36,286 bases of DNA from contig JAKALA010000043.1 in assembly GCA_021813325.1 (NCBI GenBank), positions 1 to 36,286 on the forward strand, written 5' to 3'. The translations under genes were made by a program, and so were the position numbers. Shown here piece by piece: positions 27,357-29,540 of this stretch. How positions within the stretch are numbered: the stretch's first letter is position 1; each line of letters opens with the position of its first letter. This DNA comes from a bacterium. Lineage in GTDB: Bacteria > Verrucomicrobiota > Verrucomicrobiia > Limisphaerales > UBA11358. The notes beneath the pieces were generated by a model, which was not told the origin of the DNA, ran no database searches, and was given only the letters and a program-made list of their open reading frames with translations.

Positions 27357-28550
27357 TCATCGTTTTCCGGTGGATTTTTGCAGCAGCCGTTTTAACTCCA
27401 CCGCCGGCGTTTTCACCAACTGGGCGGTCACGGCAAACTTTTTCACCCGGCTGGATGGCAGCCGGAACTTGAAATCGCGGAAAACCCGCTCGCAAATCGT
27501 CATCAGCCCGCGCGCCCCCGTTTGTTCCTCCGCTGCCAGCCGCGCCAGTTGGCGCAGCCCGTCATCCCGGAATTCGCATTCAATGCCGTAAGCCGCGAAC
27601 GCCCGCTCGTATTGATGAATCAGGCTGCTCTCACTCCTGCGCAACACATCAAACAGATCGTCTTCGCTCAAGCCGTGGCACGCCACACGCACCGGCAAAC
27701 GCCCGACAAATTCCGGCTCCAGGCCAAACGTAATCAGATCCGCCGTGGAAAGTTGCCCCAACAATTCGTCCGTGGATTTCGCCTGCTGGCGCCGTGTCTG
27801 AATGATTTCCGGGATCCCCGAAAACGCCCCGCTGACGATAAAGAGAATGTGCCGCGTGCTGACCGTTTCCGGCTGCAACGCGCCGCCGCCGCGCATCGCC
27901 GCCATGGCGCTCTGCAACTGGCCCGGCATGTCATTGGGCGACACCAGCGGCACGTCGCCATCCTCCATGAGCTTGAGCAGATTCGTTTGCACGCCGCGGC
28001 CGGAAACATCGCGCCCGGCCGGTTCCCCACGCGTGGCCAGCTTGTCCACTTCATCGAGATAAATAATCCCGTGCTCGGCCTTTTTTACGTCGCCGCCGGC
28101 GTGCCGCACCAGATCGCGCACCAGATCATCCACGTCGCCGCCCACATAGCCGGTTTCGCTGAACTTGGTGGCATCGGCCTTCACGAACGGCACGCCGATC
28201 AGTTCCGCTGCGGACCGGATCAAATGCGTCTTGCCCACGCCCGTCGGCCCCAGCAGCAACACATTTTGCTTCTGATAGAACGGGGCGTGATTTGCTGCCA
28301 AGGACAAGCGCACGTGCTGAAAATGATCGCACAGCGCCACGCTCAACACTTTCTTTGCCTCGCGCTGGCCGATCACAAACCGGTTTAAATGTTTGGCAAT
28401 ATCCGCCGGCTTGAGATCAAAGCTGAACTCCGGTTTGGGCGCGGCGGCAGATTCTTCGACGCCCGGCTTGGACAGGCGGACGCCACGGAATTTTTTGGGC
28501 ACGCCCGCCGCGATGGGGCCAGGCTGATCGCGATGAAGGGTTTCTGACAT
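27357..28550 (-). CDS. ClpX-like AAA+ unfoldase lacking the zinc domain and ClpP-docking loop
   Basis: A 397-residue ATPase closely related to ClpX, which unfolds proteins by pulling them through a ring pore. Present are Walker A (GPTGVGKT, 101-108), the pore-1 loop GYVG (134-137), Walker B (IIYLDE, 162-167), the RDVSGRGVQTNLLKLMED segment (180-197), the arginine finger R284 (EFVGRLPV) and sensor 2 R347 (TGARGL). Missing are the N-terminal four-cysteine zinc domain (replaced by about 40 unrelated residues), the RKH loop (replaced by SAMAAMRGGGALQPE) and the IGFGAT loop that docks ClpP: the segment between GAFSGIPEII and LEPEF is about ten residues shorter. It therefore probably works without ClpP and on other substrates. 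It starts 15 bases after the stop of the alpha/beta hydrolase gene, so the two form an operon. A main clpX is expected elsewhere in the genome. Confidence 0.9.
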   Translation of the reverse strand: MSETLHRDQPGPIAAGVPKKFRGVRLSKPGVEESAAAPKPEFSFDLKPADIAKHLNRFVIGQREAKKVLSVALCDHFQHVRLSLAANHAPFYQKQNVLLLGPTGVGKTHLIRSAAELIGVPFVKADATKFSETGYVGGDVDDLVRDLVRHAGGDVKKAEHGIIYLDEVDKLATRGEPAGRDVSGRGVQTNLLKLMEDGDVPLVSPNDMPGQLQSAMAAMRGGGALQPETVSTRHILFIVSGAFSGIPEIIQTRRQQAKSTDELLGQLSTADLITFGLEPEFVGRLPVRVACHGLSEDDLFDVLRRSESSLIHQYERAFAAYGIECEFRDDGLRQLARLAAEEQTGARGLMTICERVFRDFKFRLPSSRVKKFAVTAQLVKTPAVELKRLLQKSTGKR

Positions 28551-28565: not shown

Positions 28566-29396
28566 TTAATTCATCTTCACTTGCCAGAATTCCAAGACCC
28601 CGCGCCAGAATTTTTCTTGGGGTTCTCCAATTTGCGCATGCCCCAGCTCGGAAAATCGCCACAAATGTTTCCGTCCAGCGTAGCCATTGAACAGCTTGAG
28701 ACCAAACCGCGCCGGCACAATGGTATCGCGGCCATCGACCATCACTCCCACCGGACCATGATACATCGCGAGATAATTGCCCGATCTGAAATCATCCAGC
28801 GTCAGCCAGCGAGCCGGCAACCAGGGATATTGATACTGGGCCACATCCGCCAGGCGTTCATACGGTGCCAACAACATCACTCCGGAAACTCGATCGGGAA
28901 ATTCCCCGGCAAGATACGACGCCACCCCCGTGCCCAGCGATTCGCCCAGGAGAAAAACCGGCTGATTGGTGCTCATCACGCCCAACCCTTGCACCGCCGC
29001 CGCGAACAACGTCCCACGCGTCGGCTCCCCGGATTTATCCTCATAGCCGGGGTATTGCAAAATGAAGACATCCAGTGGAGCCAGTGACTGCAAGGCATCC
29101 GCATAACAGGCGCAGCCGGTCGCTGAACTGGCGTTGCCGTAGCAAATCAATACCGACGCCTCGGCTGGACGTTTCATGCCCAAATAGACGCCCGACGAAT
29201 TCGTCCAGCGCTCCAATCCCGCCTGATGCGCCCGCGACCTCGTTTGTTCAGGTGAACGGACCGGCGGCAGATAAAGCAGTTTTCTTTGAAAACAAAACAC
29301 CAGCGCGCAAACGCCCAAATACAAAACCATCACCGCCACCAGCAGGAAACGGAGCGAACGGAGAAAACGCCCGCGCAACTTTTCATTTTGTCCCAT
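28566..29396 (-). CDS. Membrane-anchored alpha/beta hydrolase
   Basis: A 276-residue protein with one N-terminal membrane helix (about 16-36, LRFLLVAVMVLYLGVCALVF) followed by an alpha/beta-hydrolase domain outside or inside the membrane. The catalytic triad is visible: Ser153 in the nucleophile elbow GESLGTG, Asp224 in VDGRDTIVP and His253 in ELGHAQ. A YGNASS segment after the first strands is the likely oxyanion-hole region. The layout resembles BEM46/YfhR-type hydrolases of unknown substrate. I chose ATG at 29396; a TTG lies two codons upstream. It is the first gene of a two-gene unit with the ClpX-like ATPase, 15 bases apart, which suggests a linked role in membrane or lipid/protein quality control (inference). 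Confidence 0.88.
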   Translation of the reverse strand: MGQNEKLRGRFLRSLRFLLVAVMVLYLGVCALVFCFQRKLLYLPPVRSPEQTRSRAHQAGLERWTNSSGVYLGMKRPAEASVLICYGNASSATGCACYADALQSLAPLDVFILQYPGYEDKSGEPTRGTLFAAAVQGLGVMSTNQPVFLLGESLGTGVASYLAGEFPDRVSGVMLLAPYERLADVAQYQYPWLPARWLTLDDFRSGNYLAMYHGPVGVMVDGRDTIVPARFGLKLFNGYAGRKHLWRFSELGHAQIGEPQEKFWRGVLEFWQVKMN

Positions 29397-29540
29397 CCGC
29401 AAATGTTGTCAGAACACCTCGCGCCCCGGCAAGTTGTCGTAAAAATCCATGCCCGCTTTGAATCTGCCTGCTGATCTGCTTGCGTTCCCGCGCAGAAATT
29501 TGAACCATGAACGGGATGGTCAGCCGATCAACCTGAGCCT

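Follow-up and report, generated by a model that had tools for sequence, protein, structure and literature searches.

What does a ClpX-type motor do once the loop that docks it on ClpP is gone? This question is raised by a gene in the window, by which we mean the whole stretch of 36,286 nucleotides analysed here, an entire contig of a 4.28 Mb Verrucomicrobiota assembly with 95% completeness. The initial annotation saw in this gene a ClpX paralogue stripped of its zinc domain, RKH loop and IGF loop, with an intact motor acting on its own. Our analyses assign the product to type A of a family that occurs in Verrucomicrobiota in two forms, A and B (Table 1); the literature in the open library held nothing relevant on a ClpX paralogue or a ClpX-like family in Verrucomicrobia.

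Table 1. Features of the type A gene and its upstream neighbour (positions in the window)
Feature	Position	Strand	Basis
Type A ClpX/HslU-like AAA+ unfoldase, 397 aa	27357..28550	minus	ORF, ATG start; profile and structure matches; alignments
N-terminal ~40 aa in place of the zinc domain	28431..28550	minus	conservation in 30 type A sequences; predicted disordered
Walker A GPTGVGKT, aa 101-108	28227..28250	minus	invariant in 30 type A orthologues
Pore-1 loop GYVG, aa 134-137	28140..28151	minus	invariant in 30 type A orthologues
Walker B IIYLDE, aa 162-167	28050..28067	minus	D166 and E167 invariant in 30 type A orthologues
Pore-2 loop RDVSGRGVQ, aa 180-188	27987..28013	minus	alignments
Loop in place of the RKH loop, aa 198-232	27855..27959	minus	partly conserved in types A and B (SPND..GQ.Q..M)
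Short linker, aa 254-261, in place of the 21-residue IGF loop for ClpP docking	27768..27791	minus	alignments, model
Arginine finger R284 in PEFVGRLPV	27699..27701	minus	invariant in 30 type A orthologues
Sensor-2 arginine R347 in TGARGL	27510..27512	minus	invariant in 30 type A orthologues
Alpha/beta hydrolase gene	28566..29402	minus	15 bp upstream of the type A gene, same strand

An intact motor under purifying selection

The full set of ClpX motor signatures (Walker A and B, GYVG, arginine finger and sensor 2), together with the second pore loop, is present in the protein, as the initial annotation had it, and the catalytic positions are unchanged in an alignment of 30 type A orthologues spanning several families. 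Comparison of the window gene with six orthologues from the same genus gave dN/dS of 0.08-0.11, values that are rough given the strong divergence of the pairs (dS 1.2-2.0); on this evidence, the gene is real and under strong purifying selection.

With respect to family assignment, the protein scores 305 bits against the NF003745 profile of ClpX and 274 bits against TIGR00382 (clpX), below the respective curated cut-offs of 359 and 370.75, followed by the HslU profile at 207 bits. Its matches among solved structures are ClpX, at about 229-231 bits. A model of the type A protein was predicted with moderate confidence (mean pLDDT 66), and the closest fold match to this model is again ClpX (Z about 19), listed above HslU, with an rmsd so large (about 20 Angstrom) that family membership is not decided from the fold search.

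A lineage apart from ClpX and HslU

Phylogenetic analysis resolves the separate clade that the initial annotation had envisaged: types A and B together form a group (99/99) that lies outside both the ClpX clade (99/99) and the HslU clade (98/96), with the root among the three left unsettled where long branches meet. The mean identity is 38.1% between type A and ClpX, 37.3% between type A and HslU, and 38.4% between ClpX and HslU. In addition to the motor motifs, type A shares with ClpX the GYVG and RDVSG pore loops and the small domain, whereas with HslU/ClpY (TIGR00390) the A/B family has in common the aligned stretches HILFI.SGAF and GRLP.RV; unlike HslU, however, the window protein has no I-domain insert in the alignment.

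These data bear on the reading of the window gene as a canonical ClpX that recently lost its zinc domain and loops, that is, an ordinary degenerate paralogue. Although the best named match is indeed ClpX, this reading is largely refuted by a distance to ClpX that equals that between ClpX and HslU and by the well-supported clade. Moreover, it sits poorly with the strong purifying selection and with the presence in the same genus of truly degenerating clpX genes that, unlike type A, have lost both pore loops. We therefore regard it as highly improbable.

Within the family, type B is widespread, about 530 aa long, and carries an IGF-like [ILVM]GF loop as well as a C-terminal extension of about 100 residues, both of which type A lacks; by profile comparison, the extension duplicates the small AAA+ domain (probability 98%, E 1.8e-13). 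The two types are 52-67% identical over the motor, share the replacement of the RKH loop, and differ further in that type B has another N-terminal helix. The tree gathers type A in one clade (support 100) that branches from within type B, and the type B ancestor of this clade had the docking loop; by this nesting, both that loop and the second small domain disappeared in the type A line. Throughout the A/B family there is neither a zinc domain nor an RKH loop, and the window protein belongs with type B both in the tree and in its loop at the RKH site. Thus, the part of the initial annotation that spoke of a stripped ClpX paralogue has to be revised: the protein is no recently stripped ClpX but a member of a lineage whose distance from ClpX is about that of HslU, and of the three missing parts only the IGF loop was lost specifically in type A.

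Replaced N-terminus and RKH loop

The N-terminal four-cysteine zinc domain is absent as first described: the only cysteines of the protein are at positions 74, 291, 325 and 353, none of them N-terminal, and zf-C4_ClpX (PF06689) has no match in the entire host genome. In its place stands a segment in which G11 and G16 are invariant and L10, P12, K28, G30, V31 and A35 are conserved in at least 90% of 30 type A sequences, forming the motifs LGP(V/I)xxG(V/I)P and KPGVxExAAP, of which the window protein has a degenerate version, QPGPIAAGVP. Apart from these two short motifs, the region is variable across type A, and its pLDDT in the predicted model is about 30. On the strength of their conservation, the two motifs are candidates for the choice of clients or adaptors.

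Likewise, alignment with ClpX finds no RKH substrate loop in the protein and, at its site, a longer and partly conserved loop (...PLVSPNDMPGQLQSAMAAMRGGGALQPETVSTRH...). The conserved residues that the initial annotation proposed to look for are thus present in both the new N-terminus and the replaced loop.

Loss of the ClpP-docking loop

In E. coli ClpX, most contacts with ClpP are made by the IGF loop, and changes in the residues or length of the loop weaken ClpP binding (PMC7112951). The corresponding segment of the window protein is indeed shortened, by about 15 residues relative to E. coli ClpX, and a scan of its whole sequence found no [ILVM]G[FLY] motif anywhere. With a linker of about 8 residues and the motif missing, this route to ClpP is very probably closed. 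GF is absent from 69 of 69 distinct type A sequences and present in 53 of 53 intact type B sequences, the sole apparent exception (L112) being a type B gene cut by a contig end. The linker is constrained in type B (45-48 residues) and variable in type A, both in length (34-72 residues) and in sequence, as would be expected once selection for docking was gone. Hence the IGF-like loop whose discovery would have spoken against the initial annotation occurs in the sister type B, not in type A.

Clp proteins of the host genome

A genome-wide profile search of the host, an incomplete metagenome assembly, detected no canonical clpX. The genome does encode one good ClpP, in a gene inside a 112 kb contig and away from its edge, and a ClpC with an LGF docking loop. 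One of the two findings that might have returned the gene to ClpX proper is therefore present, in that the host has no other clpX, yet the type A gene does not lie beside clpP, either in the window genome or in the relatives examined.

Two side observations concern other Clp genes of the host. A clpB-type gene (G000:C26, about 31.4-35.0 kb; L001:1207-3558, minus strand) contains an in-frame IS200/RAYT-type transposase domain (Pfam Y1_Tnp, 4.5e-10) near the end of the middle domain, after the first AAA lid and ahead of the second AAA domain, which may be a real insertion or an assembly join. Furthermore, two near-identical single-AAA proteins that resemble the D2 part of ClpA/B and have no first AAA domain are encoded elsewhere (L003, G000:C18, and L004, G000:C122).

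HslV is missing from the host and from all 10 genomes checked, and HslU from 388 genomes of the phylum, which leaves type A with no alternative HslV partner. This counts against the possibility that, in the way HslU pairs with HslV, type A has some other peptidase or partner ring to dock on. The HslU-like stretches of the A/B family lend this some plausibility; however, the C-termini of type A are variable (30 sequences) and unlike the HslU tail, and clustering of ORFs around 20 orthologues (8 kb on either side where contigs allowed) revealed no gene neighbour conserved beyond the genus. We consider such a partner unlikely. In the absence of conserved neighbours, genomic context hints at no client either; the alpha/beta hydrolase gene upstream recurs in three loci of the same genus only and is probably no functional partner.

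Distribution and the loss of ClpX in the genus

Relatives of the window protein were found in 99 of 388 genomes sampled across the phylum, including complete genomes of 0.9 Mb, and the best 80 loci of a scan of genome contigs are nearly all from Verrucomicrobiota records (one is titled only "bacterium"). Phage and plasmid collections yielded no relative above 60% identity, with the best among the matches listed at about 42% or less and most named ones annotated as ClpX, and viral contigs a single match at 34%. Two single-contig Verrucomicrobiota genomes of about 0.9 Mb (G376:C1 and G355:C1) have kept type B, a retention that suggests an important role for it.

In a survey of more than 320 genomes from the order, canonical ClpX was often accompanied by relatives of 58-85% identity, and in many of these genomes it is type A that coexists with ClpX. 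This coexistence indicates that the lost ClpP dock of type A is not a consequence of the absence of ClpX and that type A is not simply the local ClpX.

In the genus of the host, the distribution is different. Among 49 genomes, 17 have canonical clpX (2 of them as fragments and 2 in reworked form), 9 have type A, 23 have neither and none has both; these absences rest on incomplete metagenome assemblies, over many of which the pattern repeats. In the rpoB tree, 20 genomes of the genus form a clade (100/99) that comprises all 8 type A genomes that the tree covers, 10 having neither gene and the 2 with reworked clpX; the other 12 consist of 11 with canonical clpX and 1 with neither. A partly conserved neighbourhood, argD-ksgA-nudix-clpP, continues into clpX in the canonical genomes and was found without clpX in the others examined, so that an assembly gap is an unlikely cause. 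Type A is patchy inside the 20-genome clade, and in the gene tree copies from this genus sit next to copies from other families, at weakly supported nodes; transfer and repeated loss thus cannot be told apart. In the same genus, two clpX genes directly beside clpP (L085 and L086, in G242:C263 and G252:C65) still have the zinc domain and the Walker motifs but no longer GYVG, the pore-2 motif RDVSG, RKH or IGF, and appear, judging by these motifs, to be losing their substrate grip.

ClpP is encoded by 41 of the 49 genomes. That these include all 9 type A genomes, none with canonical ClpX, and that in this genus type A is confined to the clade from which clpX was lost, could mean that type A replaced ClpX in the clade and still feeds ClpP via a different contact. 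However, the docking motif disappeared in lineages where canonical ClpX persists, the window protein has no [ILVM]G[FLY] motif at any position, ClpC with its LGF loop is available for ClpP, and many genomes keep ClpP without either ClpX or type A. A replacement that still feeds ClpP is, in our judgement, improbable. ClpP is kept in 17 of the 23 genomes of the genus that have no gene of the ClpX family. Given that 23 of the 32 ClpX-less genomes are also without type A, the role of type A is dispensable, a point that counts against the function proposed below.

Proposed function

Taken together, we consider it probable that type A is a hexameric AAA+ unfoldase/translocase of a third ClpX/HslU-like lineage, held by Verrucomicrobiota, that works without ClpP. 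The protein would assemble as a hexameric ring whose GYVG pore loops would grip clients, chosen by the N-terminal motifs and the loop replacing RKH, and would pull or partly unfold them, so as to remodel or activate them or to dismantle complexes. Type A is predicted not to bind ClpP, although it might contact ClpP in another way. Of the stand-alone motor proposed initially, the intact motor, the missing IGF route to ClpP and the distinct, conserved N-terminus and loop are borne out, and the remodelling role is what such a combination would suggest.

The best reading, by analogy, is a logic like that of yeast mitochondrial ClpX (Mcx1), a ClpX-type unfoldase or remodeller that acts where docking on ClpP is unavailable: it has no ClpP partner and activates ALAS via partial unfolding (PMC8361296, PMC7077987). 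Unlike type A, Mcx1 is a true, mitochondrial member of the ClpX family, and the comparison concerns function, with no close relation between the two shown.

Implications

To our knowledge, unfoldases of this kind have so far been divided into just two families, ClpX and HslU. We hold the balance to be even on the broader proposal that Verrucomicrobiota have a third, ancient lineage of this level, in which type B would be the original ClpP-docking form with a duplicated small domain, and type A a derived form that, having dropped the docking loop along with the extra domain, turned into a machine devoted to protein remodelling, in some lineages outliving canonical ClpX. The same genus offers natural lineages that lost ClpX and kept ClpP. 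If a third, equally deep lineage is real, types B and A, with and without the docking loop, would form a natural before-and-after pair for how a protease motor becomes a stand-alone remodeller, and would open to experiment the question of what a ClpX-type motor does when it has no ClpP.
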